62,882 bases of DNA from a virus. The translations under genes and the position numbers were made by a program. The notes under the pieces are model-generated. The model saw only the letters and a list, made by a program, of their open reading frames with translations. It did not search any database and had not been told where the DNA came from. Shown here piece by piece: positions 2,882 through 35,691 of this stretch. Where the stretch lies: positions 1-62,882 of the IMG/VR virus record IMGVR_UViG_3300036715_004481. One strand, given 5' to 3'. Numbering within the stretch: position 1 is the first letter of the stretch; each line of letters starts with the position of its first letter.

Positions 2882-3171
2882 AATATATTAAAAAATTTGA
2901 AAACACAGAAGAAGAAAAATACTTAATCTACACGTATGAGTTTGGAGATTTAGTTTTTAATCTTAGACAACGTAGAGAAAGATTCTCATTGAATTTTGAT
3001 ACATTAGATAAAATTAATACTCATAATTACGAAATTGCAAAATATACAATTGAAGAAGCCGATAACGCTGTAAAATACTTTAATAAAAATTATCAAAATA
3101 GATTTGAATTTATAATTATTTCAGAATCTGAATTTGAATTAATGAACGCAGCAAATAAATATAATATCTAA
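2878..3171 (+). CDS. MKYIK...NKYNI family protein, array member 6 (duplicated copy B)
   Basis: This is the last gene of the first array, 97 aa, and a near-identical copy of the gene at 1735. It ends AANKYNI and is followed directly by the minus-strand tRNA cluster. A hairpin at 3257-3284 can end transcription of the array. Function unknown. Confidence 0.8.
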   Translation: MKYIKKFENTEEEKYLIYTYEFGDLVFNLRQRRERFSLNFDTLDKINTHNYEIAKYTIEEADNAVKYFNKNYQNRFEFIIISESEFELMNAANKYNI

Positions 3172-5455: not shown

Positions 5456-6340
5456 TTATAGTTTACCAATTTCTTCTTTTAATCCTAAAGCGTTTACTAG
5501 TTGTTCCAATTCATTTTTATCCATATTTAAGATTTTATTTAAAATCATTTTCTTAGCATTATCATTAGTTGTTCCTTTCATTTGTTTTGACAAATAATCA
5601 ATATCATTACTTGTATTTGCACCTAGAGTATTCAATAATTGCATTTTAGGTTTCAATAAATCAAATAATGTTGTATTAATCCAATTTATAGCAGATTTTT
5701 TATATGCAACTAAATCTGCGTCAGTATTTCCAGCAGGTGCTTCTGTTGTGTTAGTTGTAGTAACATTTGTCGCAGGATCATCAGCTTCCAAAATTTTACG
5801 AATATTATACATCACATTCTCTGTTGTTGGAGTTGTTGGAGTAGTAGATACCGTTGCTTGAGGCTTATCTAAACCAGCACCAGTTTTAACTTGTGGAACA
5901 ACAGCCTGTAAAACATACTCACTAACAGCATTAGAAAATTGATCTTCTGGATAGCTCATAAGTGTTTGTAATCTCTTATCTCTTGATGTTTTAAATATTT
6001 CTTGCATTGTAAATTCTTTATTTTGAAGTTTATTTACAATAGATAATAATGAAAAATAAAAATATTTTACAGAATCACTTAATATATTATTAACAGCGTC
6101 TATTGAATCTGCTTTATTTATTTCATTTTGTGTATTTGTTTGATTTGCTTTCAAAAAACTTTGATATAAATATGAAACATTTTTTTCAGTGTCAACTTTT
6201 TTAGTGAAGTTTGTAAATAAATTATTTAAATTCTGATTAGGATTTTTAAATATATTATTATATTGTGCTTTTAAAAAGTCACTAACAGAAGATAATACAC
6301 CTTCTGTTAAAAATTCACTATATTTAGTTATATTTTTCAT
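5456..6340 (-). CDS. Putative capsid-internal or scaffold-like protein with T4-type targeting peptide
   Basis: The 294-aa protein begins MKNITKYSEFLTEGVLSS. In T4, capsid-targeting peptides such as MKTYQEFIAEA are cut after LxE or IxE by the prohead protease gp21, and SEFLTE-G fits that rule. The rest is mostly helical, with a Thr/Pro-rich linker around residues 160-205 and an NMDKNELEQLVNALGL-type helix near the end. It may be a head core or internal protein. No enzyme motif is visible. Upstream lies the remnant at 6341-6480, whose stop overlaps this start. Confidence 0.65.
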   Translation of the reverse strand: MKNITKYSEFLTEGVLSSVSDFLKAQYNNIFKNPNQNLNNLFTNFTKKVDTEKNVSYLYQSFLKANQTNTQNEINKADSIDAVNNILSDSVKYFYFSLLSIVNKLQNKEFTMQEIFKTSRDKRLQTLMSYPEDQFSNAVSEYVLQAVVPQVKTGAGLDKPQATVSTTPTTPTTENVMYNIRKILEADDPATNVTTTNTTEAPAGNTDADLVAYKKSAINWINTTLFDLLKPKMQLLNTLGANTSNDIDYLSKQMKGTTNDNAKKMILNKILNMDKNELEQLVNALGLKEEIGKL

Positions 6341-10574: not shown

Positions 10575-11039
10575 TTATTCTAAAAATTTTAACAATTCTA
10601 ATTGGTACTTCTCAATTATTTTTACAGCATCTTTCATAGAAAAGAAGCCAGCTTCAACAGTTTCATCCTTTAAAAAATTACCTAATATCATATTATTAAA
10701 CAATTTAACATTAATATCATCTTTACCGATATTCACAGCATAGCATGTTAATTTTTTATTGACTTTTGATTTAACGTAATTTATAACTACTTTATTTGCA
10801 TCTTTCAACTGCTCTCTTGTCAACTTTATTCTAGACTCTTCTTTTAACTCTCTTAAAGCTGTATCTATTTCACTAACACCTGGTTCTACATGTCCCTTAG
10901 GAATGGACCATTTTTTCATTCTTTTTTTAAACTTCTTAGGTCTAACTAATAATATCTTATTATTATATATTAGAACAACTCCTGATAAATTATGATTTTC
11001 ATTAACAGATTCTCTCAAATATTCGTAAAAATTCATCAT
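10575..11039 (-). CDS. Nudix hydrolase with capsid-targeting-like N-terminus
   Basis: Nudix enzymes hydrolyse nucleoside diphosphates linked to another group. The box GHVEPGVSEIDTALRELKEE keeps the catalytic RELKEE core, but the first conserved Glu is Val and the last conserved Gly is Arg. A WSIPKGH lead-in is present. The 154-aa protein begins MMNFYEYLRESVNE, which resembles a T4 capsid-targeting peptide with an LRE-S cleavage site. The enzyme might therefore be packaged and injected. It sits between the HAD gene and the 70-aa gene with a much clearer targeting peptide. Confidence 0.85.
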   Translation of the reverse strand: MMNFYEYLRESVNENHNLSGVVLIYNNKILLVRPKKFKKRMKKWSIPKGHVEPGVSEIDTALRELKEESRIKLTREQLKDANKVVINYVKSKVNKKLTCYAVNIGKDDINVKLFNNMILGNFLKDETVEAGFFSMKDAVKIIEKYQLELLKFLE

Positions 11040-11056: not shown

Positions 11057-11269
11057 TTATTCAATTTCTGGCACAATTTCACCAGATTCTGGTTGATTAT
11101 CAACAATATTAATAGGAATATTTTTTATGCCTTTAAAATCTATAAATGCATATTTTTCGCCCTCTCGCCAATGAATTTTATCAACAATATCACCAATACT
11201 TGGCAATTGATCTAATGTTATAGTAAATGATTCTTTTATAAACTCCTGATATGTTCTCATTTTACGCAT
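11057..11269 (-). CDS. Small putative internal head protein with T4-like capsid-targeting sequence
   Basis: The 70-aa protein contains MRTYQEFIKES at residues 4-14. The T4 internal-protein targeting peptide is MKTYQEFIAEA, so the match is close and ends in an IKE-S site suited to a gp21-type protease. The start may be ATG at 11269 or the internal ATG at 11260. After cleavage about 55 residues would remain, including a GDIVDKIHW segment. I expect it to be packaged in the head. The function after injection is unknown. Confidence 0.65.
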   Translation of the reverse strand: MRKMRTYQEFIKESFTITLDQLPSIGDIVDKIHWREGEKYAFIDFKGIKNIPINIVDNQPESGEIVPEIE

Positions 11270-11351: not shown

Positions 11352-11609
11352 TTAAGGTTTATATTTGTTCATAGAGTTCATTATAGAGTTCATATTTGGT
11401 ATCTTTTTTGAATAATCTGGAACAGATTGTTGAGCAACATTACCACTCTGATTTTCTTTTTGCTGCTTATTTTCACGTTCAATTTTATCATTTAGTCTTT
11501 GTACATATTCTTCATATTCCCACCAAGATAGTTTATCAATATAATATGGAGCAATATGCTCCAAATCCATAAAACCAAATTTATTATCCAAAATAGTCGT
11601 CAAGGGCAT
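11352..11609 (-). CDS. Small protein overlapping the hub-assembly gene
   Basis: This 85-aa protein starts inside the 3' end of the gene at 11584-12543 (26-bp overlap, +1 frame). It has a WWEYEEYVQRLNDKIE helix that resembles the C-terminal partner of tail assembly chaperone pairs, then a Gln/Asn-rich tail. I see no classic slippery heptamer in the overlap, so coupling by re-initiation is more likely than frameshifting. It may start at the later ATG (residue 14). A tail or baseplate assembly role fits the context. Confidence 0.65.
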   Translation of the reverse strand: MPLTTILDNKFGFMDLEHIAPYYIDKLSWWEYEEYVQRLNDKIERENKQQKENQSGNVAQQSVPDYSKKIPNMNSIMNSMNKYKP

Positions 11610-12543
11610 CTGGAATAACGAAAATATTTGATGCTCCTGAGGGAAAGCTCATATCAGTGTGGACCTCCTCGCCACACACTGGACACTCATATTTCATTTC
11701 TTTAATACCAAATATCATTTGATTAACAGCTTGATTTAAAATTTGGAATGTTTTCATACTCAATCTTTTAAATTCTTGCTCTTTTACTTTTATACCTTCT
11801 TCTGTAATTTTAGTTCTATCATGCAATAAAAATGATGCCAATTTTAAAAATGCAACATTAGGATTTTTATCAACCTGAATCTTATTTTTAATATCACCGA
11901 AAAATATTTCTTGAATTCCAATTGTTGGAGGAGCTAATTTATAATCAATATTATCAATATTGAAAACAAAAACTCTTTCAATAGGGTCAAAAAACTTAGC
12001 AAGTTTTTCTGGCATTTCATGATTTACAAATGATTTATGAACTTTATTAGAACTTGTTGCTCTCAATTCAATTTTAAATTCATTATTACATTTATGACAA
12101 GTTACATCCTTTGATAAATTTTTACCACCTGGGAAAGTTAGTTCTCTAATCATAAAAATTAAAAACAACCGATCTCCATCTCTCAAATCCTTATATGAAC
12201 CTTGACTACCTGTTGAATTTATAAATTTCACACAAGATGACAATATTTGATTCATCTTCTCTGTTATATCAAGATAATTTGAATCATCCACAACTGAATA
12301 TGCTTGTACTTCCTGCACTCTAGCTGCTCTAATGTTTATTTTTGTACCTTGCTTATAAAACATACCACACGGTAAAACTTCCAATGGTATAGATATATAC
12401 TCATTAGAAGGCACGTTATTATCCAAATATGACAAATCTGGCTTTCTTACAGATTCAATAACATCATCATTTTCAGACATAAAATTTTTTTCTAAATAAT
12501 TTAAAGCTTCTGCTTCTTTTTTATCTTTGAAATCATCTTTCAT
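11584..12543 (-). CDS. Baseplate hub assembly protein-like (T4 gp26/gp51-type family)
   Basis: The 319-aa protein has the core of the T4_baseplate family: a helix with DGDRLFLIFMIRELTF, then a zinc-knuckle CHKC, a beta region, and a second knuckle CPVCGEE near the end. Proteins of this family act in assembly of the baseplate hub and may not stay in the particle. A TTAATATATA element lies 20 bp before the ATG. The small gene at 11352 overlaps its end. The family call rests on motif memory, not on a search. Confidence 0.6.
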   Translation of the reverse strand: MKDDFKDKKEAEALNYLEKNFMSENDDVIESVRKPDLSYLDNNVPSNEYISIPLEVLPCGMFYKQGTKINIRAARVQEVQAYSVVDDSNYLDITEKMNQILSSCVKFINSTGSQGSYKDLRDGDRLFLIFMIRELTFPGGKNLSKDVTCHKCNNEFKIELRATSSNKVHKSFVNHEMPEKLAKFFDPIERVFVFNIDNIDYKLAPPTIGIQEIFFGDIKNKIQVDKNPNVAFLKLASFLLHDRTKITEEGIKVKEQEFKRLSMKTFQILNQAVNQMIFGIKEMKYECPVCGEEVHTDMSFPSGASNIFVIPDALDDYFG

Positions 12544-12573: not shown

Positions 12574-12664
12574 AAGATTTGTGTCCCATAAAAAAATAAT
12601 TAAAAAAAATTTACACACAATAAACTTGAACTTCAAAAATTTTTATATAAAGATAAAAAATCAT

Positions 12665-14363
12665 ATGATATTGACTAAAAATATAGAAATAAGAGTAAAT
12701 CCAAACAATATGAAATATTTAAAAGAATTTAACGAAAATATTATAAACAATGAGATTATCCAAATACCAATAGAAAAACTATCTAAAAATTCACATTTAA
12801 AAATAGATGTTAAGTGTGATTTGTGTGAATTTGAAAAGAGCATATCTTATCACTCTTACATTAGAAACATTAAAAACACAAACTTATATACTTGTCAAAA
12901 ATGTAGTGGAATAAAAAACAAGCAAACAAATTTAAAAAAATATGGTGTAGAATATCCAATACAACTAACAGAAATAAAAAAAAGAAGAAAGAAAAATAAT
13001 CTAGAAAAATATAATGTAGATGAACCATCAAAATTAGATTCAATAAAAGAAAAAATAAAAAACACAAAAAAACTAAAATATGGTAATGAAAACTATAATA
13101 ATATTGAAAAAACAAAAGAAACTAAAAAACTAAAATATAGTGATAAAAACTACAACAATAGAGAAAAGGCAAATAATACTTGCATTAAAAAATATGGAGT
13201 CGAAAATGTTTCACAATCAGAAAACATCAAAATTAAAAAGTGTGAAACGACAATGAAAAATTATAATTCAGATAATTATAGTAAATCGGAAACATATAAA
13301 ATGAATAGAATTGATATTCTAAAAGAAAAATACAAAGACATAAACATATTAGAAGTGTGTGATGATAAATTGACATTAGATTGTGATTGCAATAAGCATC
13401 ATATTTATAATATAGATGTGACAATTTTAAGAAATAGAATAATTTATAAAACAGTTCTATGCACAATATGTAATCCGATATCATCATATTCTAATAGCGG
13501 ATATGAAATAAATCTTCAAAATTTTATAAAAGAGAATTATAATGGTAAAATTTTATTTAATTCTAGAAACGTGATAAAGCCTTTAGAATTGGATATTTAT
13601 TTACCAGATTTAAAATTAGCATTTGAATTTAATGGTTTATATTGGCATAGTGAAGCAAACAAAGAAAATAATTATCATTTAAATAAAACGGAGGAATGTG
13701 AGAGCCAAGGAACACAATTAATTCATATATATGAAGATGATTGGCTATATAAACAAGATATTGTAAAATCTATTATATTAAACAAATTAGGTAAAAACAC
13801 AAAATAATATTTATGCCAGAAAATGTGAAATTAGAAAAATATCTGATAACAATTTAATTAGATTTTTCTTAGATAAAAATCATATACAAGGATTTGTTGG
13901 GTCAAAAATTAAAATCGGGTTATTTTATAATAATGAATTAGTAAGTCTGATGACTTTTGGTAATCGTAAAATTGCTATGGGTAAAAAGTCTACAAATGAA
14001 GGAGAATACGAATTGCTAAGATTCTGTAATAAACTCAACACTAATATTGTAGGTGGTGCTAGTAAGCTATTTAAATATTTTGTTAAAAACTATAATCCTA
14101 CAGAAATAATGACTTATGCTGATAGAAGTTTTAGCCAAGGCATATTGTATAAAAAATTAGGATTTAAAATACAAGGTAAAACGGAGCCAAATTACTACTA
14201 TATTATTGATAACATTAAGCATCATAGATTCAATTTTCGAAAAGATTTACTTATAAAACAAGGATATGATAAAAATAAAACAGAGCATGAAATTATGCTA
14301 GAAAGAAAAATATATCGTATTTATGATTCTGGCAATTTAAAATTTATATATACTCAAAATTAA
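12665..14363 (+). pseudogene. Frameshifted homing endonuclease (EDxHD/Vsr-like)
   Basis: An ATG at 12665 (preferred to GTG at 12581) opens a protein with an N-terminal cysteine-knuckle domain, KYGVE-type repeats (about residues 105-215), and a nuclease core with ELDIYLPDLKLAFEFNGLYW and IHIYEDDW. The frame closes at 13807. The rest of the same protein (IYARK..., MTFGNRK...) continues in another frame to 14363. The intact relative at 19902 shows that one single-base shift near 13800, in an A-rich stretch, separates the halves. It is either a decayed gene or a sequencing error. It lies between hub-assembly and virion genes. Confidence 0.75.
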
Positions 14364-14411: not shown

Positions 14412-15122
14412 ATGATAATTCCATTATATGATGAACACTTTAAAGTTGATGATAAAGGACTTGCACACTCATATCCTAATTTTCCTCCAAATTATTCTGA
14501 ACCACAAATAACATATTCATTTACATATGATGGATTTATGAACAATGTTTCTGTTCCATTATTATTTAACTGGTCAGTACAACCGCCATTTTATATATTA
14601 TCTGGTCAAAACACCAAAACAATTACACTTGAGCTTAAACCATCATTAACAAAAGATAGAGAAGGATTTATATCAGGTTCAAATGTTACATATAAAAAAT
14701 TAAAATATAGCGATTTAAATCTTGAAATAATATATGAGCCACCAACAACTAAACCTAGAATACTAAAAGATTCTATAAATATATATTATAGACAAGGCCC
14801 ACTTTGGAAAATTCAAGGTAATAAATTTCCAAAAATAAAATTAAACACTTCTGGAAAACCAGAAACAATAGAAACATATGAATTGATACCACAATATGAT
14901 CAAACTGGATTTCCACCTAAAAATATAACAGAGCACAATTCATACACTTTCGTAATTAAAGGTGGAACTGTTAAAAAATTTTATGGCGGTATACCACCTA
15001 CTGGAACACCTCTTGTTGATATATTGTGGCATACACCAGGCTCAGGATATTTAGCGTTCTATTCAACATGGACATCAGAATCTGTTAAATTTCCAAATGT
15101 TTTAGACATTTTCATATCTTAA
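14412..15122 (+). CDS. Putative virion protein, function unknown
   Basis: The 236-aa protein is rich in beta strands, Pro, Tyr and Thr, with no signal peptide, membrane segment or catalytic motif. The composition and the late-type element upstream suggest a structural protein of the tail or fibre. It is followed by a small membrane-protein gene. I do not recognise the family. Confidence 0.65.
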   Translation: MIIPLYDEHFKVDDKGLAHSYPNFPPNYSEPQITYSFTYDGFMNNVSVPLLFNWSVQPPFYILSGQNTKTITLELKPSLTKDREGFISGSNVTYKKLKYSDLNLEIIYEPPTTKPRILKDSINIYYRQGPLWKIQGNKFPKIKLNTSGKPETIETYELIPQYDQTGFPPKNITEHNSYTFVIKGGTVKKFYGGIPPTGTPLVDILWHTPGSGYLAFYSTWTSESVKFPNVLDIFIS

Positions 15123-15386: not shown

Positions 15387-15399
15387 ACTAAGTAAAATT

Positions 15400-15432
15400 G
15401 AAAAAGAGATTTATTATATAAGTCTCTTTTTC
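15400..15432 (+). terminator. Hairpin terminator
   Basis: GAAAAAGAGA (15400-15409) pairs with TCTCTTTTTC (15423-15432). The T-run closes the operon ending at 15386 and separates it from the receptor gene. Confidence 0.75.
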
Positions 15433-15505
15433 ATTTAAACACATCTAATTTTCCTTAAATTATATTTAAAAACAAAAAAAAAACACATAATTAATTTTTT
15501 TTAAT

Positions 15506-15514
15506 TATCTTTGC
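15506..15514 (+). promoter_or_regulatory. TAnnTTTG promoter box before the receptor gene
   Basis: TATCTTTGC matches the Bacteroidetes -7 element and lies 25 bp before the ATG of the TonB-dependent receptor. The -33 region is only T-rich. Confidence 0.55.
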
Positions 15515-15539: not shown

Positions 15540-17492
15540 ATGAAAAAAATCTTTATTGCATTATGTTTTTTAATGTCAACTATGACATTGTTATCTCAAA
15601 ACGATAGTATTAAAAAAGATACTACTAAAAATATCAATTTAAATGATATTGTAGTTTCTGGTTATCGTCCAAACATCAACACACCAATTTCACAAAAAAC
15701 ACTAACCAGCAATGATATTAGTGAACAGTATTTCGGACAAGAAATGGTGTTTATCTTAGGTGACACACCATCTGTTAACACATCATCTGATGGTGGTCAT
15801 TTTAATGGCTATTCTTATTTTAGCATTCGTGGTATTGACCAAACTCGTGTTAATGTGACTCTTAATGGCTCACCATTAAATGAACCTGAAGATCAAGATA
15901 TATGTTTCAGCAATTATCCAGGTTTCGCAATGAACATAAATTCAGTTCAAATACAGCGTGGTGTTGGATCATCATCAAATGGTGTAGCATCATATGGTGG
16001 TAGCATTAATTTTGAAAGTAAAAACGGATTAGACAAAAGCATAAATGTAAACATGTCTGCAGGAAGTTTTAGTACTCAAACAACTAATGTAAGTTATAGC
16101 TCTGGACTAATCAAAAACAAATTTTCATTGTTTGCTAATATTTCTGAATATTCAAGTGAAGGATATAGATATCACTCTGGAGGTAGTGGTTATTCAGCAT
16201 TTATCTCTGGTAGATATTATACCGACAATAATGTTTTTAAATTAACTACATTTACTGGTAAATCATTAAATCAAATGGCACATTTAGCATCACCAGAAGA
16301 TTCAATTAAGATAGATAGTCGTAACAATCCAATAAAATCAGATAATGACAATTTCACACAAAGTTTTGTTCAACTACAAAATGTGCATAGCACTTCTAAG
16401 GATTTTGTTCTTACAAATACACTTTACTATAATAGATTAGATGGTAGATATGATATTTTTGGAGATTATATTCAATTAGGTTCTAATTTTATTGGCTTCA
16501 TGTCAAATTATCTTATTATTATAAATAAGTTAAAAATAAACACAGGATTTAATATAAACACATATGATCGTATACACTCTGGCGGAAAAAATGATAGTAT
16601 ATACTACACCAACACTGGAAATAAGAATGAATTTAGTGCATATACAAAATTCAACTATGATATTAAAAAATTTAAGTTATTCGCTGATTTACAATTAAGA
16701 AATTCTGATTTTAACTATCAAGGAAATAAACAAATGAGTAGAAAAAATTGGTTATTTCTTAACACGATGGGTGGAGTAACATATACTATATCAAAAAAAG
16801 AAAGTGCATACTTATCAATAGGTAACACACATCGTGAGCCAACAAGAACTAATATGTTTGGTGGATCAGATAACTTAGATAGCTTATATAATATAATTCC
16901 TGAATCTGTTGTAGACTACGAATTAGGATACAATCTAGAAAACGATAATTTTAAAATTCAAGCAAACCTATTTTATATGGATTTTAAAAATGAAATAACA
17001 CTAGCTGGTGGACCAACATTAAATGATCTTCCTTTAACAACAACAGTTGATCGTAGTTTTAGAACAGGACTAGAATCAGACTTGACATATAAAATAAGCG
17101 ACAATTTTTCAGTAGATAACACAACTGCACTGTTATATAGTAAGTTCTTTATGAATAATAATGAAGTTAGTCGTACACCTCTTTCTAGTCCATTGCTGAT
17201 GATGTCTCAAAATGTTGTATATACTAATGGTTCATTAATGGTTAATCTTTGTGGTCAAGTTTCTACTAATTACTATATTGACTTAACTAATAAAAATATT
17301 GTGCCAAGTTATTTTCTATTAAATTTAACTGTTAGATATCAATGCACTGAAAAAATATCATTAACTATTAGTGGAAACAATCTAACAAATAAAAGATATT
17401 TTAGTGGTGGTTATGTTGATGGTAATAATAATAATTGCTACTTCATTGGAGCACCAATTAATTTTTACACAACATTAAACATAAAATTCTAA
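15540..17492 (+). CDS. TonB-dependent outer-membrane receptor
   Basis: The 650-aa protein would be an outer-membrane beta-barrel that imports a bound ligand using TonB energy. It has a signal peptide (basic MKKIF, hydrophobic core, cut near residue 19), a TonB-box-like LNDIVVSG at about 33-40, and a plug domain with FSIRGIDQ, VTLNGSPLNEP and VQIQRGVGSS-SYGGSINFES. The long barrel ends in a terminal aromatic strand (LNIKF). It lacks the carboxypeptidase-like N-terminal extension of SusC proteins. It is intact, has its own terminator-isolated promoter, and overlaps the start of a pnuC-like remnant, which suggests nicotinamide riboside or a related ligand. Cobalamin is an alternative because the phage has a class II ribonucleotide reductase. 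Such a gene is very unusual in a phage. Confidence 0.9.
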   Translation: MKKIFIALCFLMSTMTLLSQNDSIKKDTTKNINLNDIVVSGYRPNINTPISQKTLTSNDISEQYFGQEMVFILGDTPSVNTSSDGGHFNGYSYFSIRGIDQTRVNVTLNGSPLNEPEDQDICFSNYPGFAMNINSVQIQRGVGSSSNGVASYGGSINFESKNGLDKSINVNMSAGSFSTQTTNVSYSSGLIKNKFSLFANISEYSSEGYRYHSGGSGYSAFISGRYYTDNNVFKLTTFTGKSLNQMAHLASPEDSIKIDSRNNPIKSDNDNFTQSFVQLQNVHSTSKDFVLTNTLYYNRLDGRYDIFGDYIQLGSNFIGFMSNYLIIINKLKINTGFNINTYDRIHSGGKNDSIYYTNTGNKNEFSAYTKFNYDIKKFKLFADLQLRNSDFNYQGNKQMSRKNWLFLNTMGGVTYTISKKESAYLSIGNTHREPTRTNMFGGSDNLDSLYNIIPESVVDYELGYNLENDNFKIQANLFYMDFKNEITLAGGPTLNDLPLTTTVDRSFRTGLESDLTYKISDNFSVDNTTALLYSKFFMNNNEVSRTPLSSPLLMMSQNVVYTNGSLMVNLCGQVSTNYYIDLTNKNIVPSYFLLNLTVRYQCTEKISLTISGNNLTNKRYFSGGYVDGNNNNCYFIGAPINFYTTLNIKF

Positions 17493-18368
17493 TGTAAACA
17501 ATTGAAATTCTTACAGTTATATTTGTCGGAATTAGTATATTCTTAACAATCAAACAAGATATTATTTGCTTGGTGTTCGGACTCATTAGCTATGTTCACA
17601 CAATAAAGAAGATATACCTGTCGAAGTTAGATACAATTGGCTATTAGAAGAATTTAAAGCTGTTTATAAAATTAAAATAACACATAAAGATACATCACAT
17701 ATAAAAAATACATCTGTATCAAGTGTAGATGTTTCAAGAGTATGCCAGTATATTTAAAAAAAAAACTTTTTCCTGATGTAAATATCATATTTACAAGTGA
17801 AAAGTATGGTGATTATGTGCAAAATTTATGAACATTGAACATATGCAATATGATAAAAAAAGAATAAATACATCAATATCATCAACTTTACTAAGAGAAA
17901 GAGCATTAACATATTGGGAATTTATACCAGAATCAGTTAAACCTTATCATAGTTCGGAAAAATCATATCATTTTATATGATTTTTCCGAACTATGATAAG
18001 CAAAATAATAACTTGGCAAGCAAAAGAAATTGAAAAAAAATCTTGGTGATAAGATATTATTCTCAGATACAGATTTATTAACAACTATTTGCTATAGTGA
18101 ATTTCTATTTAATAGTCATCCAGAAAATATAACAAAAGAAATAAAAAATTTAAATAAATTTGATTTATATCTATATCTTTGGAACGACGTACCATTTGTT
18201 GACGATGAAACTATAATGGACAAAACCAAACGTTCAGAATTTCATAATCTATTATTTGAAAAATTTAAATATAAAAATATCTTTGTAATTAAAGTCTCAG
18301 ATTTTAAAGAAAGATTCAACAAATATGTAGAGATTGTTGACAAATTTATTGGGGAAATTAAAAATTAG
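17492..18368 (+). pseudogene. pnuC-nadR remnant (NAD salvage genes)
   Basis: ATG at 17492 is followed at once by TAA, then by an open frame TIEILTVIFVGISIFLTIK that looks like the first helix of PnuC. After a deletion, another frame shows the adenylyltransferase part of NadR (VRYNWLLEEFK, FTSEKYGDYV, then INTSISSTLLRERALTYWEF and IPESVKP), broken by more shifts. The sequence ends with the kinase part (LGDKILFSDTDLLTT and LYLYLWNDVPFVDD). The HxGH nucleotide-binding site and the kinase P-loop are gone. The start overlaps the receptor stop, so the order was receptor-pnuC-nadR. No working enzyme is expected. Confidence 0.75.
17943..18000. repeat. Perfect 26-bp inverted repeat within the nadR remnant
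   Basis: Arms at 17943-17968 and 17975-18000 are exact reverse complements around a 6-nt spacer. The left arm continues the NadR reading frame (KPYHSSEKSY), so the right arm seems to be an inverted copy that replaced the kinase P-loop region. Confidence 0.9.
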
Positions 18369-19143: not shown

Positions 19144-19707
19144 TTAGTAATAGAAGTCTTCCCAATAGTCTGCAACAAATTTGGCATTTAAACTCATAAT
19201 TTCAGTACCAGCTGACCAATCAACATCTTCCATACCATCAAATCCTACCATCATCGCATTATGATAAGTAACTCTACGGATAACTTTTCCTTCTTTATCA
19301 TGTAAGTGAATAATAATATCACCAACAAGATTTTTCTTGTAGTGAAGAGTTCCAGTTTCGTTATTCCAAGCTAAATCGTACCAGTCTTTCAAAATTTTAA
19401 AACAGAAGATTTGATAATCATCGTTTTGGTTAAGATTAAAAGATATAGTCAAATCGTCAACGTGAGTTTTATCTGGCATCATAACGAACACTCTTGTAGA
19501 GTATTTAAATCTTTGCTCTTTACTTGTAAGTGCAGGATAAGCTGGAAACTTAGCTGTTGTTGTGTTTTCCAATAGTAAATGAGTTGCGTTTGGATGAATT
19601 GACTGAAGTACAGTTGGTAAAATAATACTGACTTCATACAAATTTTTATGTATCGGTTCATTTTTTTGTTGTGCAGTATCAACTGCGGTAAAATGTGCTA
19701 ATGGCAT
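19144..19707 (-). CDS. Tail tube protein (T4 gp19-like)
   Basis: The 187-aa protein has the size and pattern of contractile-tail tube subunits: an N-terminal strand region with NLYEVSIILP, a central VDDLTISFNLNQNDDYQIF segment, then FKILKDWYDLAWN and a C-terminal GMEDVDWSAGTEIMSLNAKF. It forms the inner tube around which the sheath contracts. A TTGATATATA element lies 24 bp upstream. Homing endonuclease genes stand on both sides. Confidence 0.85.
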   Translation of the reverse strand: MPLAHFTAVDTAQQKNEPIHKNLYEVSIILPTVLQSIHPNATHLLLENTTTAKFPAYPALTSKEQRFKYSTRVFVMMPDKTHVDDLTISFNLNQNDDYQIFCFKILKDWYDLAWNNETGTLHYKKNLVGDIIIHLHDKEGKVIRRVTYHNAMMVGFDGMEDVDWSAGTEIMSLNAKFVADYWEDFYY

Positions 19708-19901: not shown

Positions 19902-21440
19902 GTGAACATAGAAGAATTATTAAAAGAGAATGATAAATCTGGAAAGATGTTTAAAGAAAAATATTTAAAAAAATATTACGAACCAATTTATACTGAAATA
20001 ATTAAATATTCTATAGATTATAATTTAGAATCTTTAAAATTTGTAGAAAAAATGTATTACTTCTATCACAACATAAAAAATATTTTAGTATGTAAATGTG
20101 GAAATAAACTTAATATGATAAATTTCAATAAAGGATATAGCGCACACTGTAGTCAAAAATGCTCACACGAAGATGAACAAACATTAGAAAAAAGTAAAAT
20201 AAAATGTATCGAAAAATATGGTGTAGATAATCCTAAAAAAAATAAAGATGTTCAAGAAAAGGCTTACGCAACAAACTTAGTTAAATTTGGCTTTAAGCAT
20301 TCCTCACAAAACAAAGAAGTTCAGGAAAAAATGAAAAAAACAAATCTTGAAAGATTAGGTGTAGAATTCCCAGCACAAGATAAAAATGTTAGATCAAAAT
20401 ATTATAAAGCTATAATAGATAAAAATTTATTAAAATATGATAATTTAATAAATATAGATTATGAAAATAAAAATATGCTGTTTAAATGTGACTTCGGAGA
20501 AGAACACAATTTCAAAATATCAATAGATTTATTTCAAAATAGAAAAAGAACTAATATAAAATTATGCACAATTTGTAACACAAAATTTATGTCTCAATCT
20601 GAATCAGATTTTTTAAAAATATTTAATGATGGTATAATATTACACAGTAGAAGTATAATAACACCTTTAGAATTGGACGCATATATTCCAGAATTAAAAT
20701 TAGCATTTGAATTTAATGGTTTATATTGGCACAGTGAGGTAAATAAAGAAAACAATTATCATGTGAATAAAACTGAAGAATGCGAAAAGAAAGGTATACA
20801 ATTAATTCATATTTATGAAGATGATTGGTTATATAAACAAGATATAGTAAAATCTATAATATTAAACAAATTAGGCAAATCTGAAAGAATTTTTGCTCGT
20901 AAGACAGAATTGAAAGAGATTGATGATAACAAAATAGTTAGAGAGTTTTTAGAAAAAAATCACATTCAGGGATTTGTTGGTTCTAAAGTTAAAATTGGAT
21001 TATTTTATAATGATGAATTAGTAAGTCTGATGACTTTTGGTAATCGCAGAGTTGCTATGGGCAAAAAGTCCACAAAAGAAGGAGAATATGAATTATTAAG
21101 GTTTTGTAATAAACTTAACACCAATATTGTTGGTGGTGCGAGTAAATTATTTAAATACTTTATTAAAAATTATAAACCAACAAAAATTACAACTTACGCT
21201 GATAGAAGTATTAGTCAAGGTAAGCTATACGAAACATTAGGATTTGAATTTATTGGTAAAACTGATCCAAACTACTATTATATTATTAATGGAGTTAAAT
21301 ATCACAGATTCAATTTTAGAAAAGATTTACTAGTAAAGCAAGGATATGATAAAAATAAAACTGAACACGAAATAATGTTAGAAAGAAAGATATATAGACT
21401 TTATGATTCTGGAAATTTAAGATATATTTATAAATTATAA
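19902..21440 (+). CDS. Homing endonuclease (EDxHD/Vsr-like), intact
   Basis: The 512-aa protein has an N-terminal zinc-binding part (CKCGNKLNM, CSQKCSHED), KYGVDNP-type repeats (about 105-165), and the nuclease core ELDAYIPELKLAFEFNGLYW with IHIYEDDW. The C-terminal domain contains IQGFVGS, MTFGNRR and TYADRS segments. Over the nuclease and C-terminal domains it is closely similar to the broken copy at 12665-14363. Such enzymes cut a related phage genome and spread by repair. It sits next to the tail tube gene. Confidence 0.85.
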   Translation: MNIEELLKENDKSGKMFKEKYLKKYYEPIYTEIIKYSIDYNLESLKFVEKMYYFYHNIKNILVCKCGNKLNMINFNKGYSAHCSQKCSHEDEQTLEKSKIKCIEKYGVDNPKKNKDVQEKAYATNLVKFGFKHSSQNKEVQEKMKKTNLERLGVEFPAQDKNVRSKYYKAIIDKNLLKYDNLINIDYENKNMLFKCDFGEEHNFKISIDLFQNRKRTNIKLCTICNTKFMSQSESDFLKIFNDGIILHSRSIITPLELDAYIPELKLAFEFNGLYWHSEVNKENNYHVNKTEECEKKGIQLIHIYEDDWLYKQDIVKSIILNKLGKSERIFARKTELKEIDDNKIVREFLEKNHIQGFVGSKVKIGLFYNDELVSLMTFGNRRVAMGKKSTKEGEYELLRFCNKLNTNIVGGASKLFKYFIKNYKPTKITTYADRSISQGKLYETLGFEFIGKTDPNYYYIINGVKYHRFNFRKDLLVKQGYDKNKTEHEIMLERKIYRLYDSGNLRYIYKL

Positions 21441-21761
21441 ATTAAACTTATCCGCTTCATATTGCATCATAACATCTTCTATAGTTTTTCCTACATATTT
21501 TATATAATTAGAATGAATAATAATCATACCATCTTTATCAAAATATTGTTCAATATTAAAATCTATATTATGATATTTTATTTGAACATTCTTGTTAACT
21601 TTATTAACAACAACAATTTGTCCAATATTATTCTCTAAAAAATAAATATATTTATTTGGTGATACACCAGAAGCAAAAGCTTCGCTAACGTTTAGTAAAA
21701 CATAATCATTTACTTCAATTTCATTTGTATTAAAAAATTCATATATTTTCAAATGTTTCAT
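21435..21761 (-). CDS. MKHLK...DKFNL family protein with DYVLL domain
   Basis: This 108-aa member starts MKHLKIYEFF and ends ADKFNL. It has VNDYVLLN near residue 17 and NNIGQIVVV, the same short beta-barrel-like pattern as its two neighbours and the gene at 2025. It is the last of three genes read leftward. Function unknown. Confidence 0.75.
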   Translation of the reverse strand: MKHLKIYEFFNTNEIEVNDYVLLNVSEAFASGVSPNKYIYFLENNIGQIVVVNKVNKNVQIKYHNIDFNIEQYFDKDGMIIIHSNYIKYVGKTIEDVMMQYEADKFNL

Positions 21762-21762
21762 A

Positions 21763-22083
21763 TTACAAATTATAATTTTCCATTGATATCATAGCTTCAA
21801 CTTCTTCTTTTGTTTTTGCATGATATTTTATTTGAGTCAAAACAACCGTATAATATTTATTTTTATAGAGCCAAGTTTTCACATCTTTCGGAGCATTTTC
21901 ATATGATATTTTAGCAGTCAGATCATCTGCATAAATTTCTTCTATTTGACCAATAGTATCATTTAAAAAAATAGTTAACGGAGAAACTCTATTATATCTA
22001 TAATTATAATACAGCAAAACATGATCACCAACAGCAATATCACGCAAATAAACAACAAATTCAAATTTTTTCAAATGCGTCAT
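21763..22083 (-). CDS. MTHLK...ENYNL family protein with GDHVLL domain
   Basis: This 106-aa member starts MTHLKKFEFV and ends MENYNL. It has VGDHVLLYY, NDTIGQIEEI and a C-terminal AKTKEEVEAM helix. The pattern matches its neighbours on both sides, so the three look like tandem duplicates that have diverged. Function unknown. Confidence 0.75.
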   Translation of the reverse strand: MTHLKKFEFVVYLRDIAVGDHVLLYYNYRYNRVSPLTIFLNDTIGQIEEIYADDLTAKISYENAPKDVKTWLYKNKYYTVVLTQIKYHAKTKEEVEAMISMENYNL

Positions 22084-22084
22084 A

Positions 22085-22417
22085 TTAAATATTATATTTT
22101 GTAGATACGATTTTTAGTTCTAGTTCATCTATTGTTTTAGCATAATATTTTATATCACTAATATGTCTATCAATAGAATCATACATATCAAAAACATATC
22201 TAACATCTGATGGTATATTTTTATATTGAATAGTAACAATACTATTACGTATATTTGTTATTTTTCCGATATTATTATTCACAAACAAAAAAAATTTGTA
22301 CTTATTAGTTTTCGATAAGACATCAATATATAAAAAATCAATATCCAATAATACATAGTCACCGATTCTAATATCACCGATATTGTACATATGTTCAAAC
22401 TTTTTCAAATGTTTCAT
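22085..22417 (-). CDS. MKHLK...TKYNI family protein with GDYVLLD domain
   Basis: This 110-aa member starts MKHLKKFEHM and ends STKYNI. It has IGDYVLLDID, NNIGKITNI, a NIPSDVRY segment also found in the gene at 2025, and the helix AKTIDELELK. A TATATAGAAC box stands just before its ATG, as in other members of the family. It is the first of three genes read leftward. Confidence 0.75.
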   Translation of the reverse strand: MKHLKKFEHMYNIGDIRIGDYVLLDIDFLYIDVLSKTNKYKFFLFVNNNIGKITNIRNSIVTIQYKNIPSDVRYVFDMYDSIDRHISDIKYYAKTIDELELKIVSTKYNI

Positions 22418-23119: not shown

Positions 23120-24880
23120 TTAATTATTTTTCCAAATAAATTTCAATTGTCCAGAATCATAAATTCTATAGATTTTTCGTTCTAGCATTATCTCTTTCTC
23201 AGTTTTTTCTGGATCAAAACCATCTTTTATAAGAGCATCCTTTCTAAAATTAAATCTATTTTTTCTAAGTCCATCAACAACATAATAGTAATTAGATTGA
23301 GATTTGTGAACAAAATCAAATCCTAATTTATAATACAAATCACCTTGACTCCAACTTCTATCTGCATATGTTATAATTTCTTTTGGACTATAATTATCAG
23401 TAAAATATTTAAACAACTTAGATGCACCACCAATAACATTCGTATTTAATTTATTACAAAATCTTAATAACTCATAACTTTCTGGTGAACTTTTTATTCC
23501 CATATTCTTTCTCTGCTTACCAAAAGTCATCATACTAACAAACTCTTCATTATAATATAATCCAAATTTAAATTGTGAGCCAATAAATCCTTGAATGTGA
23601 TTTTCTTCTAAGAATTCTCTAACTATTTTATTATCTGTTATTTCTTTTAATTCTGTTTTTCTAGCATATATTTTATTCGGTGTCAGGTTTAGAACATTTA
23701 AAATCCTAGAACGAACAATTTCATTTTTATATATCCAATCATCTTCATATATGTGAATAAGCTTTATACCATTAGACTCACACAATTCTGTTTTTTTTAA
23801 ATGATAATTTGAGTCTTTATGTAATTCATTGTGCCAATAAATTCCATTAAATTCAAATCCAATTTTTAATTCTGGTAAAAAAACATCCAATTCATAAGGA
23901 GATATAATCTTTTTGGAATTTTCAAGAATATCATTGAAATATTCACCTTTAACAAAGGATAAAAAATCATGCTCAGACATAGAAGTTTGATTAAAATGTT
24001 CTGGAAAACACTCATTACACATATATCTGGCAAATTGCTTTCTAGATTTATATAATTCAAAGCTAATTTTGAAAGTGTGTTCCTTACCTGCATCACATTT
24101 TATAGTATATTCTCTATTATCAGAATCTATATTAATTATATTTTCATCATTAGATATTTTATTATATATCCAGGTATTTTTTCTCTTCTCTTGAACATCA
24201 TTTACAATATCTACATTTTTATATGGGTTCAAAACACCATAGTTTTTAAATAATGTTTCTTTAGATTTTTGTAAAATTTCTGGAATTTGATATGGATATT
24301 CTACACCATATCTATCCATCATAGTTTTTAAATAATTTTCTTTATAATTACTCTTTTTAAAAGATTTTATTCTTTTTATTTTTAATTCTTCAGATTTATT
24401 TGGATTATCAACTCCATAATTTTTAAATAGTGTATCTTTTGATTTCTTTTGAACTTCATCATTCTGCAATGGACTATTACTACCATATCTTTCTTGATTA
24501 GTTTTTATCATTTTTTCTTTAATATCACTATTCATTCCTGGAGCTTTAGTGCCAAACTTCTGATAAGATTTATCTTCTTTTATTTTTTTTATATTTGGAT
24601 CACTACTCACACAGGCATTAGAACAATAATTATTATAACCTAATGTTGAATTTTTAAAATTTACTAAATTTTTACAATTTGGATTTGAACAATATACATT
24701 ATTTTTCAAATCATTAACATAATGATAAACTTTTTCTTTAAACGGCAAATCAATCAATTTATCATTACAAAATTCTATAACATCATTAAAAATTTCAGGA
24801 TAATTTTTTTTAACATATTTTTCTACATACATTCTACCAGATGCACCATTCTCTATTTTTATTGTTTCTATATTATTCAT
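23120..24880 (-). CDS. Homing endonuclease (EDxHD/Vsr-like), third family member
   Basis: The 586-aa protein has an N-terminal cysteine-rich part (CSNPNCKNLVNF, CSNACVSSD), several KYGV/RYGV repeats (about 110-225), the core ELDVFLPELKIGFEFNGIYW with IHIYEDDW, and the same C-terminal domain (IQGFIGS, MTFGKQR, TYADRS) as the other two copies. It is the longest copy because it has more repeats. It lies directly downstream of the tail sheath gene on the same strand. Confidence 0.85.
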   Translation of the reverse strand: MNNIETIKIENGASGRMYVEKYVKKNYPEIFNDVIEFCNDKLIDLPFKEKVYHYVNDLKNNVYCSNPNCKNLVNFKNSTLGYNNYCSNACVSSDPNIKKIKEDKSYQKFGTKAPGMNSDIKEKMIKTNQERYGSNSPLQNDEVQKKSKDTLFKNYGVDNPNKSEELKIKRIKSFKKSNYKENYLKTMMDRYGVEYPYQIPEILQKSKETLFKNYGVLNPYKNVDIVNDVQEKRKNTWIYNKISNDENIINIDSDNREYTIKCDAGKEHTFKISFELYKSRKQFARYMCNECFPEHFNQTSMSEHDFLSFVKGEYFNDILENSKKIISPYELDVFLPELKIGFEFNGIYWHNELHKDSNYHLKKTELCESNGIKLIHIYEDDWIYKNEIVRSRILNVLNLTPNKIYARKTELKEITDNKIVREFLEENHIQGFIGSQFKFGLYYNEEFVSMMTFGKQRKNMGIKSSPESYELLRFCNKLNTNVIGGASKLFKYFTDNYSPKEIITYADRSWSQGDLYYKLGFDFVHKSQSNYYYVVDGLRKNRFNFRKDALIKDGFDPEKTEKEIMLERKIYRIYDSGQLKFIWKNN

Positions 24881-24984: not shown

Positions 24985-27900
24985 TTATTTGAATCCCATT
25001 GATTGAATATCACCTTTTTTAAGAATTGTAATATTGTTAACAATAATACCCATCCCCTTGATAATCTCGACATAAGTATCCAAAACGCCCATCTGTAAGT
25101 CAATCACATAATTTGTATTATTGGTATCATCGCAAACATTCCAGAAGTCATAAAATGCATCATTATCCAACATATCCTTACAAATTTTATCTGCACGATA
25201 TTTAATTTCTGCTCGTATTTCTGCAGTATTAAATGACCATTGATATCTTAATAACATATCATACAATCTATTTTCAAGTTCTATAAGAACTTCTCTTGAG
25301 TGTAATATACTTAAAGATGAATATGGAAACACTTGTGCTGTTGATTCACTATTTATACAGTAGCCATTATTTATCTTATAAGCAATTGGATTTGCATTCA
25401 TTTGATATAAGTTTTCTAAGTCAGTGTTAGTGAAGTCCATTTCAGTTTTAGTGATGCTTTGAACTCTACCGTTAGTTATACCAGCGCATATTGTCCATGG
25501 AACCATACCTGCAATATTTGATGTAAATTTTTGCATATAAGTTGTTGCTGCGAATGATGCTGGTGGAACCATTTTAGGTATACCATTATCATAAATTCTA
25601 ACATATGGGAAATAATAACCAACGCAACTTCTACCATCTACATTACCATGGGGTTTAGCAAATTGATAATAAAAATTTGGATTTTTAGATTCGTCTGCAC
25701 CAGTTTTAACATATTCAAGATTAAGTGATCCGTCAACATTAACAAATGATGGATTCGTAGATTCTTTGAATATTTTAGCACTTGGCATATTAATAAATCC
25801 TAAACAGTTCAATTTTAAACCGCAAAGATCGGCAAGTTGTTGCTTTGAACCATAACCGTCCATTGGAATAAGTCCCAATCCAAAAGAGTCAACAAGATAT
25901 CTCCAAGATATTTTATTTTTATTTGCTAATGCTTGTGCAAGATTGGTATCTTTAGCTATAACATCCAATATTAAATTTTGTCTTGCATCAGTACCATCAG
26001 GTATAGAATCATTATTTATAATAAACGGAGTTAGAACTAATGCTTTATATTCATCAACATAAGCATCAACTGATGGATATGAGAATGTTTGATAGCTCAC
26101 TTCTGTTGTACCTGTTGCTGAATCATAATCTTGTATTTTTATTGGAGCATCAGTATAAATAATTTTCAAATTAACATTGTTTGGATCGTTTTTAACATTT
26201 ATAACTCTTGTCATTGTTCTAGGAACAGAGCCTTCTAAATAACCAGCGCCGTTAGGTGCTTGCCAATTAACTTCATCATAATAAGCAGCTAAGAAACTAC
26301 CATTTGTTATTTCAGAATATCTATTTTTATCAATCCAAATTTGTTGAATAGTTGTTAGGTCGTTACCATACCAGTCTACAATTTGAATAGATTGTTCCCA
26401 ATTGGATCTATTTGAATGTATTATTAATTTTTCAGAATAATTTGACAACCAATCACCATAAACTACTTCACATGAAGAATCAGGATTAATAGATGTTAAA
26501 AAATTAACAGTCAACAAACTATCTTGATCTATAAACATTTTTAAGAATATTTTGTTTGTTGTTCCACTATTATTATTAACATAGAAATAATCTAAATTGT
26601 TAATAACACCATTATAATAATCTTGATACAATGCTGAATATGTTGCAACGATACCAGTTTTACTTGTTGTACCAAGAACATTAAATCTAGTTTTAAGAGA
26701 ATTTGTGTTTATGCTATTTTTATGTAACAAGAATTCGTTGTCTATATAATATAGTAAGAATGATGTTCCACTGTAGCAAAATTGCGGATCATCTACATAT
26801 ATCTTAATACTTGCATCTGTTGTTGTTGTCGCATCTAATGTAACAGTTGAAGCAACTGGCACTTTATCACCAGATGTAACACCATAAGTTGTTTTAACTA
26901 AAACACTTTTTGTACTTATTTTATCATATATTTCATAGAAAGAATGTATTGTTCTAAGATAATTGTAATCATTATATATACCAGTTTTTCCAGCAGTATT
27001 TGTAAATTTAATATTCATATAATCGCCTAAACTATCAGAGCTATCAGATATAGAAATACCGTAACCTGATATATAATTAAGAGGTACATAACCATTATTA
27101 TCTACGCTAACAGGATAATATGTTAAAGTAGATGTTGAACCAGAATTAACAGTAAGAGTATAACCTAAAATTAAAGTGCTATCCAAACTAAGAGTATATT
27201 GTGGTTTAACAGCACCATTATATGTGTTGGATGTTGTACCATATAAAACATTAATGGTATTATCTGGTGTAAGATATAATACATCATATCTTGAACCAAT
27301 TTGTGTTGTAATACCACTTAATGTAACACTATCTTGTGTAATACCACTAATTAATGTTCCACCGATAACATAATAAGCGTGTGCATCTATATTAAATACA
27401 ACTTTTAATGTTTGTCCAGTAATATTAGTAATAGTATCTGTAAGAACCTTCACATTATAAACATTACCATTTGTGAAAGCACCAGTTCTATCATCAGCAC
27501 CTAAAGCTAAATAATCAACTTCATAACTATTAGGAAAAGTAGTAATAACATTATTACTAGAATCTAAATATTTTTGAGTATACACCAATTCTTCTTTTAA
27601 ATTTGTTTCATACGACATAAATTTAATAGAACTAATATCATGATCAACAATTGTATCACCTAATATGTCAAGATTACCCAATTTGAAATCGGCTTCCAAA
27701 AGTGAATCTTCATTATATGTGCAGAATAATCCAGTTTTATCAGTATTATTGTTTATAACTGTTTTAATATACATATCTCTATTATTTAAATCTACAAAAT
27801 AAGGTAATAATGAAACATCATAACTTGCTAAAATGGTAACATTTCTTTCATTTAAGAAATTGCTAACTTGCGTTTTCATCAAACCATTTTTATTAAAATA

Positions 27901-28605
27901 TTTACCAAATGTTAAATCATTAGATAATGTTGTATAATCTGACCAATTACCAGCAACTACAATAACACTAATAATATAATCAGACATCCAATCTCTATGA
28001 TCTATATATGATGGTACTTTAGTTTTATCACCATACCAATCTAATGCTGTGACATCAAATCCAGTAATATTTGATTTAAACATAAATACTGTAATATCTT
28101 TATCACTCATATTGGTGATATGAAACAATCTATCAGCATCTTGAACTCCATAGTTTGCAGCTTTTACAACATTAAGAAACGCATCAGTATCTCTTTCCCA
28201 GAAATCTTGTCTATTATAGAATGATTCATAAGCAGCTCTATTAACTGCACCATTTGTATTTTTTGCTGACACAGATATTGATTGCCAGTCTACTTTATCT
28301 CTATTAGGATTTGTTGCTAATAGATTTAGTGCCCAAACTGGACCACTTTTCAACATTTGTTTCACAGTCTTGTGAAAAAATGATCCCTTATTTTCTAATC
28401 TTCTATCGTCATCACCATATATAGCTGTGAAATCAACAGGATTAGTTACGTATATAGGAGTATTAATTGGACCTTTCTTTGAAAAACCAGGCACAAGATT
28501 GATAAGTACATCTTGTACTGGAAGTTGGACAATACTACTATCAATTTCTTCAATGAAAATACCAGGTCTTTTGTATTTCCCAAAATCTTTGTCTTTGATT
28601 GGCAT
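24985..28605 (-). CDS. Tail sheath protein (T4 gp18-like), very large
   Basis: Sheath subunits wrap the tail tube and contract during infection. The N-terminus (RPGIFIEEIDSS, VLINLVPGFSKKGP, VTNPVDFTAIYG) and the C-terminal domain (SCVGYYFPYVRI, VPPASFAA, VPWTICAGI, INNGYCINSES, ELENRLYDMLLRYQWSFN) are typical of contractile-phage sheaths. At 1206 aa it is nearly twice T4 gp18; the extra mass is a Ser/Thr/Asn-rich beta region (about 330-750) that may form outward domains. A TTAATATATA element lies 22 bp upstream. Confidence 0.9.
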   Translation of the reverse strand: MPIKDKDFGKYKRPGIFIEEIDSSIVQLPVQDVLINLVPGFSKKGPINTPIYVTNPVDFTAIYGDDDRRLENKGSFFHKTVKQMLKSGPVWALNLLATNPNRDKVDWQSISVSAKNTNGAVNRAAYESFYNRQDFWERDTDAFLNVVKAANYGVQDADRLFHITNMSDKDITVFMFKSNITGFDVTALDWYGDKTKVPSYIDHRDWMSDYIISVIVVAGNWSDYTTLSNDLTFGKYFNKNGLMKTQVSNFLNERNVTILASYDVSLLPYFVDLNNRDMYIKTVINNNTDKTGLFCTYNEDSLLEADFKLGNLDILGDTIVDHDISSIKFMSYETNLKEELVYTQKYLDSSNNVITTFPNSYEVDYLALGADDRTGAFTNGNVYNVKVLTDTITNITGQTLKVVFNIDAHAYYVIGGTLISGITQDSVTLSGITTQIGSRYDVLYLTPDNTINVLYGTTSNTYNGAVKPQYTLSLDSTLILGYTLTVNSGSTSTLTYYPVSVDNNGYVPLNYISGYGISISDSSDSLGDYMNIKFTNTAGKTGIYNDYNYLRTIHSFYEIYDKISTKSVLVKTTYGVTSGDKVPVASTVTLDATTTTDASIKIYVDDPQFCYSGTSFLLYYIDNEFLLHKNSINTNSLKTRFNVLGTTSKTGIVATYSALYQDYYNGVINNLDYFYVNNNSGTTNKIFLKMFIDQDSLLTVNFLTSINPDSSCEVVYGDWLSNYSEKLIIHSNRSNWEQSIQIVDWYGNDLTTIQQIWIDKNRYSEITNGSFLAAYYDEVNWQAPNGAGYLEGSVPRTMTRVINVKNDPNNVNLKIIYTDAPIKIQDYDSATGTTEVSYQTFSYPSVDAYVDEYKALVLTPFIINNDSIPDGTDARQNLILDVIAKDTNLAQALANKNKISWRYLVDSFGLGLIPMDGYGSKQQLADLCGLKLNCLGFINMPSAKIFKESTNPSFVNVDGSLNLEYVKTGADESKNPNFYYQFAKPHGNVDGRSCVGYYFPYVRIYDNGIPKMVPPASFAATTYMQKFTSNIAGMVPWTICAGITNGRVQSITKTEMDFTNTDLENLYQMNANPIAYKINNGYCINSESTAQVFPYSSLSILHSREVLIELENRLYDMLLRYQWSFNTAEIRAEIKYRADKICKDMLDNDAFYDFWNVCDDTNNTNYVIDLQMGVLDTYVEIIKGMGIIVNNITILKKGDIQSMGFK

Positions 28606-29003: not shown

Positions 29004-29627
29004 ATGGGGAAAAACAATAATGAACTTGAGGTTCAATTCGAAGAAAGAACAGGAGTAAACTTTCAATTTTTTTACAAAAATCACAAACCAAAATTAATGT
29101 GGTATATCACAAAGTTCACAAAAGATGTTGAGATAGCCGAAGATCATGTAGAAGATGCTTTTATTCAGGCACTATTAAACATTAGTACTTATAAAAGACC
29201 AGATGAAGGTGGTGCACAAGTAAACACTTGGGTTTACAAGATTGCGGAGAACATCGTAAAAAAATCACACAAAGATAGTGAAAGATTACCAACAGATTCT
29301 TTAGATAAAGATATGGCAATAAATTTCAATCTATCCAATGTAGTACCGTATGAAGATGATAGAAAAGAAGCTGAGGAATATAATATATTCGTCAAAAAAG
29401 CAAACATTATTAAAGAAACAATATATGGCTTACCTGACAAAGACTCAAAATATAAAAAGGTTTTAATAATGAGGGAAATTGAGGGAATGGCATACAAAGA
29501 AATTTCAGATGAATTAAATATTAATCTTTCTACAATAAAATCACAAATCAAAAAAGGTAGAAACATAGTTAAAAAGAAAGTTTTAAAGAAATTTCAAGAA
29601 ATTGATTACAACGACACAGAAGAATGA
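29004..29627 (+). CDS. ECF-type sigma-70 family factor
   Basis: The 207-aa protein has region 2 (FYKNHKPKLMWYITKF, DVEIAEDHVEDAFIQAL, then VNTWVYKIAENIV) and region 4 (YKKVLIMREIEGMAYKEISD and LNLSTIKSQ-like helix-turn-helix), separated by an acidic linker. This is the two-domain layout of ECF sigma factors. It should redirect host RNA polymerase to phage promoters, the role gp55 has in T4. Its stop overlaps the next start as ATGA. It is the best candidate reader of the TTAATATATA elements. Confidence 0.85.
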   Translation: MGKNNNELEVQFEERTGVNFQFFYKNHKPKLMWYITKFTKDVEIAEDHVEDAFIQALLNISTYKRPDEGGAQVNTWVYKIAENIVKKSHKDSERLPTDSLDKDMAINFNLSNVVPYEDDRKEAEEYNIFVKKANIIKETIYGLPDKDSKYKKVLIMREIEGMAYKEISDELNINLSTIKSQIKKGRNIVKKKVLKKFQEIDYNDTEE

Positions 29628-35655: not shown

Positions 35656-35691
35656 AAAAAAGCTAACTTAAATTAATCAGTTAGCTTTTTT
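35656..35691 (-). terminator. Terminator for the leftward glycosyltransferase operon
   Basis: AAAAAAGCTAACT (35656-35668) pairs with its complement at 35679-35691. The stop codon of the heptosyltransferase gene lies in the loop, and a long T-rich tail follows on the minus strand. Confidence 0.75.

Follow-up and report, generated by a model that had tools for sequence, protein, structure and literature searches.

An intact TonB-dependent receptor gene beside broken pnuC and nadR in a phage genome fragment, probably the remainder of a phage cassette for import of an NAD precursor

The window, meaning the whole stretch of DNA analysed here, is virus record G000, 62,882 bases long and a fragment of a larger phage genome. 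An intact ORF of 650 aa at 15540-17492, on the plus strand and with 0 internal stops, is the gene of a TonB-dependent receptor (TBDT). It lies among tail and homing-endonuclease genes and is followed directly by the remains of two more genes. The features of the locus are these:

11584..12543, minus strand: T4-type baseplate protein, left flank of the cargo (PF12322, 1e-5; 58% identical in LR756501)
12581-13807 and 13950-14363, plus strand: homing-endonuclease pieces, broken into two ORFs
15399..15433, plus strand: AT-rich hairpin with a 16-bp stem, probable terminator of the upstream gene (folding -16.8 kcal/mol, z -6.7)
15506..15514, plus strand: Bacteroidota -7-like box TANNTTTGC / TATCTTTGC, a weak possible receptor promoter whose last base is 25 bases before the ATG
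15540..17492, plus strand: TonB-dependent outer-membrane receptor, putatively for nicotinamide riboside (ORF, Pfam, tree, conserved columns, model, fold matches)
17492..17605, plus strand: pnuC remnant (phage PnuC queries in tblastn, best 8e-8; sequence)
17590..17959, plus strand: remains of the adenylyltransferase half of nadR, spread over three frames and lacking the N-terminus (L007 NadR as tblastn query, E = 3e-19)
17943..18000, no strand: perfect 26-bp inverted repeat with a 6-base loop, at the site of the missing NadR P-loop region, the nadR deletion junction (repeat search)
18030..18368, plus strand: remains of nadR from the C-terminal portion of its ribosylnicotinamide-kinase domain (AAA_28 2e-9, phrog_3462 7e-17, TIGR01526 7e-11, tblastn 1e-17)
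19144..19707, minus strand: tail-tube protein, right flank of the cargo (phrog_32623 2e-16, phrog_45 tail tube 1e-7; 47% identical in LR756501)
24985-28605, minus strand: tail sheath (PHROG sheath families)

Pfam places the receptor plug, PF07715, on residues 46-154 (E = 7e-11, 43 bits against a curated cut-off of 23.9) and the barrel, PF00593, on residues 224-615 (E = 8e-21, 75.9 bits against a curated cut-off of 27). The AlphaFold model, for which the window protein was aligned with homologues from IMG/VR and from bacteria, has a mean pLDDT of 82.8 and a pTM of 0.83, and displays a helix at the N-terminus, the plug, and some 22 strands, with the first 49 residues mostly of low confidence. 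By eye, the N-terminus MKKIFIALCFLMSTMTLLSQ, which falls in that low-confidence region, resembles a Sec signal; also visible are the segment LNDIVVSG, which looks like a TonB box, and a Phe at the C-terminus. The top matches of the model in a PDB fold search are all TBDTs, the first being the PQQ receptor PqqU with a TM score of 0.84 at 16% identity. An earlier note on this DNA had described a complete 650-aa TBDT with plug and barrel, and the open ORF, the Pfam domains, the model, and the PDB matches bear this out: the product of 15540-17492 is a TonB-dependent outer-membrane receptor, real and complete.

The same note placed the receptor between virion and homing-endonuclease genes, which the baseplate, tail-tube, and endonuclease pieces on the flanks confirm, and it raised the worry that the contig might be a chimera. 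The sheath is recognized by PHROG families, although the tail-sheath Pfam model has no match in the window. In LR756501, which with LR745206 and LR756502 belongs to a set of complete, circular, manually curated phage genomes (735, 634, and 642 kb, respectively; PMC7162821), the homologues of sheath (596429-600274), tube (600424-601014), and baseplate (602589-603368) stand in the order found in the window. The sheath-tube and tube-baseplate gaps are 0.15 and 1.6 kb in LR756501 versus 5.3 and 6.6 kb in the window, where the wider gaps contain the homing-endonuclease genes and the receptor cargo. A common order with wider gaps in the window argues that the receptor was inserted between tail genes, and not that the contig is a chimera. 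With both flanks syntenic to a curated 735-kb phage, and with receptor homologues in complete circular curated phage genomes, an assembly chimera or host contamination is hardly credible as the explanation of the locus, and the receptor is genuine phage cargo. Its position is not conserved, since the receptors of the three complete genomes sit elsewhere in the genome. Intact relatives of the broken homing endonuclease are encoded at 19902-21440 and 23120-24880, and for the window gene at 14412-15122 the phage collection yields no relative. The tail genes have their closest cultured relatives among phages that infect, for the most part, Flavobacterium, Tenacibaculum, and Chryseobacterium, which suggests a Bacteroidota host.

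Elsewhere in the window there are several features of separate interest. About a dozen short ORFs at 753-3171, 21435-22417, 60038-60553, and 62101-62403 share a MKYIKKFE-like N-terminus ahead of differing middles and mostly an ANKYNL-like C-terminus; the N-terminal motif is found in 10 ORFs versus 0.01 expected in shuffles, and is possibly a targeting tag. The proteins of 11057-11269, 10575-11039, and 5456-6340 have N-termini such as MRKMRTYQEFIKES, which we take to resemble the sequence that directs T4 internal proteins into the capsid; one such N-terminus is carried by a Nudix-like protein, and the count of a loose version of this pattern, 8 versus 4.9, is not above shuffles. A DnaB-like helicase is split at its Walker A motif into 41517-42596 and 42722-43444 (minus strand), both halves having intein-like ends, so that it looks like a split intein. 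The ribonucleotide reductase at 37313-40786 (minus) also has an intein-like insert, and the homologue in LR745206 aligns to it as two segments, one on either side of that insert. By eye, sigma-factor-like and rhomboid-protease-like proteins, unusual in phages, are encoded at 29004-29627 and 29954-30691 (plus), and glycosyltransferase-like and HldE-type sugar-kinase-like genes at 35673-36869 (minus), 53089-54054 (plus), and 59028-59756 (minus), the latter group suggesting changes to the host envelope or glycans.

Upstream of the receptor, the strong hairpin at 15399-15433 agrees with the terminator that had been proposed there. The host-type promoter proposed along with it fares differently, as the Bacteroidota -7-like pattern occurs at 21 sites in the window versus 19 expected and sigma-70-like sites are at background level; with both patterns at about chance frequency we have dropped that claim as unproven.

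The pnuC and nadR remnants at 17492-18368 were absent from the earlier note. The ATG of pnuC overlaps the receptor stop by one base (TAATG), a junction common to the window, LR745206, LR756502, and L015; codon 2 is TAA, and about 35 of about 182 codons are left. Aligned with the NadR of LR756501, the window nadR is missing residues ~1-34 and 154-216, the N-terminal loss amounting to the first ~35 residues. The tblastn matches to these remnants rule out treating 17493-18030 as intergenic. Neither an intact pnuC nor an intact bifunctional nadR stands beside the receptor, and none of NadR, PnuC, NAPRT, NadE, or PncA is found intact elsewhere in the 62.9-kb window. Judged from the remnants, the receptor is the first gene of what would have been a three-gene operon with pnuC and nadR, both partners now being broken.

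The intact form of this arrangement is found in relatives. A tblastn search of 50,697 phage records with the receptor matches LR745206 at 44%, LR756502 at 37%, and LR756501 and LR756503 at 36.5%, as well as 15 of 15 Lak genomes at 27-29%. LR745206, LR756502, and LR756501 each contain an intact TBDT-pnuC-nadR cassette, whose partners Pfam and NCBIfam assign as PnuC and NadR, the NadR matches falling below the full-length equivalog cut-off; NAPRT, NadE, and PncA surround the LR756501 cassette. In the 3 Lak loci examined, nadR and pnuC lie 5-6 kb downstream of the receptor. A single-sequence scan of IMG/VR with the receptor gave no match, and profile scans located it on 38 contigs (32 at 95% protein identity). 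On 33 of the 38, nadR is within a few kb of it; two have only pnuC nearby, and one of these stops just past that gene; another contig carries NadE-like and PncA-like genes in place of nadR and pnuC; and in two the receptor is truncated. One contig, L135, with a truncated receptor (152-181 aa) and neither nadR nor pnuC nearby, is itself another decaying cassette. Two gene orders occur, TBDT-pnuC-nadR and TBDT-nadR-pnuC, and NAPRT, NadE, or PncA also adjoins the receptor in several relatives. As nadR is expected about once per genome of 200 kb or more, by a rough estimate, its linkage to the receptor would not be due to chance. The receptors of LR745206 and L016 differ with a dN/dS of about 0.09, indicating purifying selection on phage receptors. 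The earlier view that TBDTs are hardly ever phage cargo is untrue for this phage group, with 38 IMG/VR contigs, three huge phages, and all 15 Lak genomes to the contrary. By these homologies, the window locus represents, in broken form, a cassette widespread among huge phages for what appears to be NAD-precursor import.

The question of what the receptor imports brings in its bacterial relatives. Its profile matches 142 of 396 Bacteroidota genomes at E<=1e-80, and in 34 of the 65 genomes having both, a TBDT and a NadR-like match lie within 4 kb on one strand. Nearly all of these clusters hold the NadR kinase half alone and several adjoin Thiamine_BP or ThiE-like genes; of 10 host thiamine-type loci scanned, 5 have a TPP riboswitch ahead of the receptor. 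Because of the lone kinase half, the neighbors, and the riboswitches in half of those scanned, we reject these TBDT-pnuC-NadR-like-kinase clusters as nicotinamide riboside (NR) operons and regard them as thiamine-type. The only host case found with TBDT, pnuC, and full-length nadR in phage order is G201, a 980-kb bacterial contig, whose receptor is by far the best host match in the 396-genome sample, at 4e-225 versus ~1e-170 for the next; the G201 genome also carries a second, thiamine-type receptor. In the tree, the window receptor falls within a starred clade of 9 phage rows, of which the other 8 all adjoin nadR, with L015 as its sister. A larger group with support of 92 takes in every phage row, those of Lak included, together with the NR operon of G201 and a set of Flavobacteriales receptors encoded next to mnmE, and leaves the thiamine-type receptors outside. 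The Flavobacteriales receptors of that clade (L002, L003, L092-L095) occupy a conserved site beside mnmE, without pnuC or nadR.

From this context, the ligand is most likely NR or a close NAD precursor. That favors half of the earlier guess, NAD precursors, to which the broken pnuC and nadR next door and their intact counterparts in relatives point; nothing points to its other half, cobalamin. Thiamine, named there as well, belongs to other branches of the tree. A thiamine receptor of the OMthi type does have some standing as an alternative, in that the wider family contains thiamine-linked receptors beside PnuC-like transporters, and since PnuC-family transporters and NadR-like kinases accompany these too, their presence counts against the NR reading. 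The phage cassettes, however, have a bifunctional NadR, often with NAPRT, NadE, or PncA, and lack a thiamine pyrophosphokinase; a TPP riboswitch is found neither in the window nor at any of 7 phage loci scanned; and with the thiamine-type rows apart from the phage rows, we consider thiamine improbable. The wider receptor family would appear to serve thiamine and, by context, NR. Less probable still is a carbohydrate receptor, which is the published view: the TBDT of Mar_Mega_1 and LR745206 has been called 'TonB-dependent receptor (SusC)' and read as sugar uptake (PMC9723777). Against it, Pfam finds no CarboxypepD_reg or STN domain in the receptor or nine neighboring ORFs, there is no SusD-like gene among the neighbors scanned, the only full-length match in a viral fold library is a phage 'SusC' of 805 aa at 13% identity, and the genes linked to the receptor are NAD genes.

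The remaining point is the state of the orphan receptor. Host PnuC or NadR may take over and keep it in use, it may serve some second purpose, or decay may just not have reached it yet. Lesions of three kinds (a nonsense codon, deletions, and several changes of frame) have destroyed pnuC and nadR, the end branch of the window receptor is 0.85 versus 0.36 for L015, and L135 has lost both partners along with part of its receptor, all of which suits a relic that is intact merely because the operon decayed recently and has no function in this phage; the long branch would also fit a recent relaxation. On the other side, 650 codons are free of stops while the next 870 bases carry several lesions, and of 80 near-invariant columns, 62 of them invariant and 18 with a single exception, the window receptor is odd at 2, a count no higher than in copies from intact cassettes. 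A relic is unlikely on this balance, yet deserves to be taken seriously. Another thought is that the orphan was kept for a different job, blocking or decoying phages that use the host's receptor of the same family, or altering the infected cell surface. TBDTs such as FhuA are phage receptors, T5 pb5-FhuA and the exclusion lipoprotein complex Llp-FhuA are among the PDB fold matches, and this phage has retained the receptor with its transport partners gone. We think this quite unlikely, since linkage to NAD genes in almost all relatives, pnuC and nadR among them, argues that transport is the ancestral job.

Our preferred reading, which we hold to be probable, is that the receptor was gene 1 of a phage NR-to-NAD cassette and is now orphaned; its ligand, expression, and benefit are what we infer. 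Such a cassette would comprise the TBDT in the outer membrane, PnuC in the inner membrane, and a bifunctional NadR that is both kinase and adenylyltransferase. Once made in the infected cell, the phage receptor would insert in the host outer membrane and, with host TonB-ExbBD, pass NR or a close NAD precursor to the periplasm; PnuC would move NR on to the cytoplasm, where NadR would convert it to NMN and then NAD, and the resulting NAD would supply replication and offset host NAD-depleting defenses. With pnuC and nadR dead, the cassette as such cannot work in the window phage, which would be left with the outer-membrane step alone, feeding host PnuC and NadR if present, or else with a young relic. 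Tentatively, and with more doubt than conviction, we extend this to a picture in which huge phages of Bacteroidota encode a full NAD-precursor route over both membranes (TBDT, PnuC, NadR, often NAPRT, NadE, and PncA) and, in one lineage that has lost the inner steps, selection maintains the receptor for another use, either to feed host enzymes or to shield the cell against other phages.

Many of the largest known phages carry this receptor, and on the preferred reading an infecting virus would remodel the host surface for vitamin import. The cassette linkage supplies a ligand guess for a bacterial and viral TBDT subfamily of no known substrate, would correct the published sugar-uptake reading, and makes a tie to NAD-depleting anti-phage defenses.

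Phage NAD salvage is known, NadR and NadV being well described (PMC9503650, PMC7824862) and NadR-like matches occurring in 760 phage records, but the systems in the papers found act from the inner membrane inwards, whereas the cassette here includes the outer-membrane receptor too. Vibrio phage KVP40, whose salvage is reported to be functional as cited in PMC9723777, and its relatives (NadV, NadR, PnuC) likewise encode the salvage of NAD precursors in the phage genome, by NadR and in some cases PnuC; the KVP40-type reports and reviews found name no outer-membrane receptor, whereas the window locus has a TBDT as gene 1, followed by dead pnuC and nadR. In mostly open literature and main texts, we found one mention of a phage TBDT, the 'SusC' of PMC9723777, and none of the cassette; TonB is absent from the main text of huge- and Lak-phage papers and a 2026 jumbo-phage review (PMC7162821, PMC8346664, PMC11165621, PMC12363816, PMC13282480). 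The nearest likeness is to the huge-phage cassettes of LR745206, LR756502, LR756501, and the IMG/VR contigs, which have the receptor subfamily and gene order of the window and in several cases the TAATG junction, and from which the window copy differs by its broken pnuC and nadR. In LR745206, our closest complete-genome relative, the receptor homologue precedes pnuC and nadR, unlike the 'SusC' sugar reading. The closest solved fold, E. coli PqqU/YncD (9c4o, 6v81), has another ligand. The closest tested mechanistic analogue is Bacteroidota thiamine uptake by OMthi-PnuT-Tnr3 (BT2390, BT2396-2397; PMC5613172), similar in design in that a TBDT of the family works with a PnuC-family inner-membrane transporter and a cytoplasmic trapping enzyme; that system has a TPP riboswitch and thiamine enzymes, whereas the phage loci checked have bifunctional NadR, no riboswitch, and separate branches in the tree.
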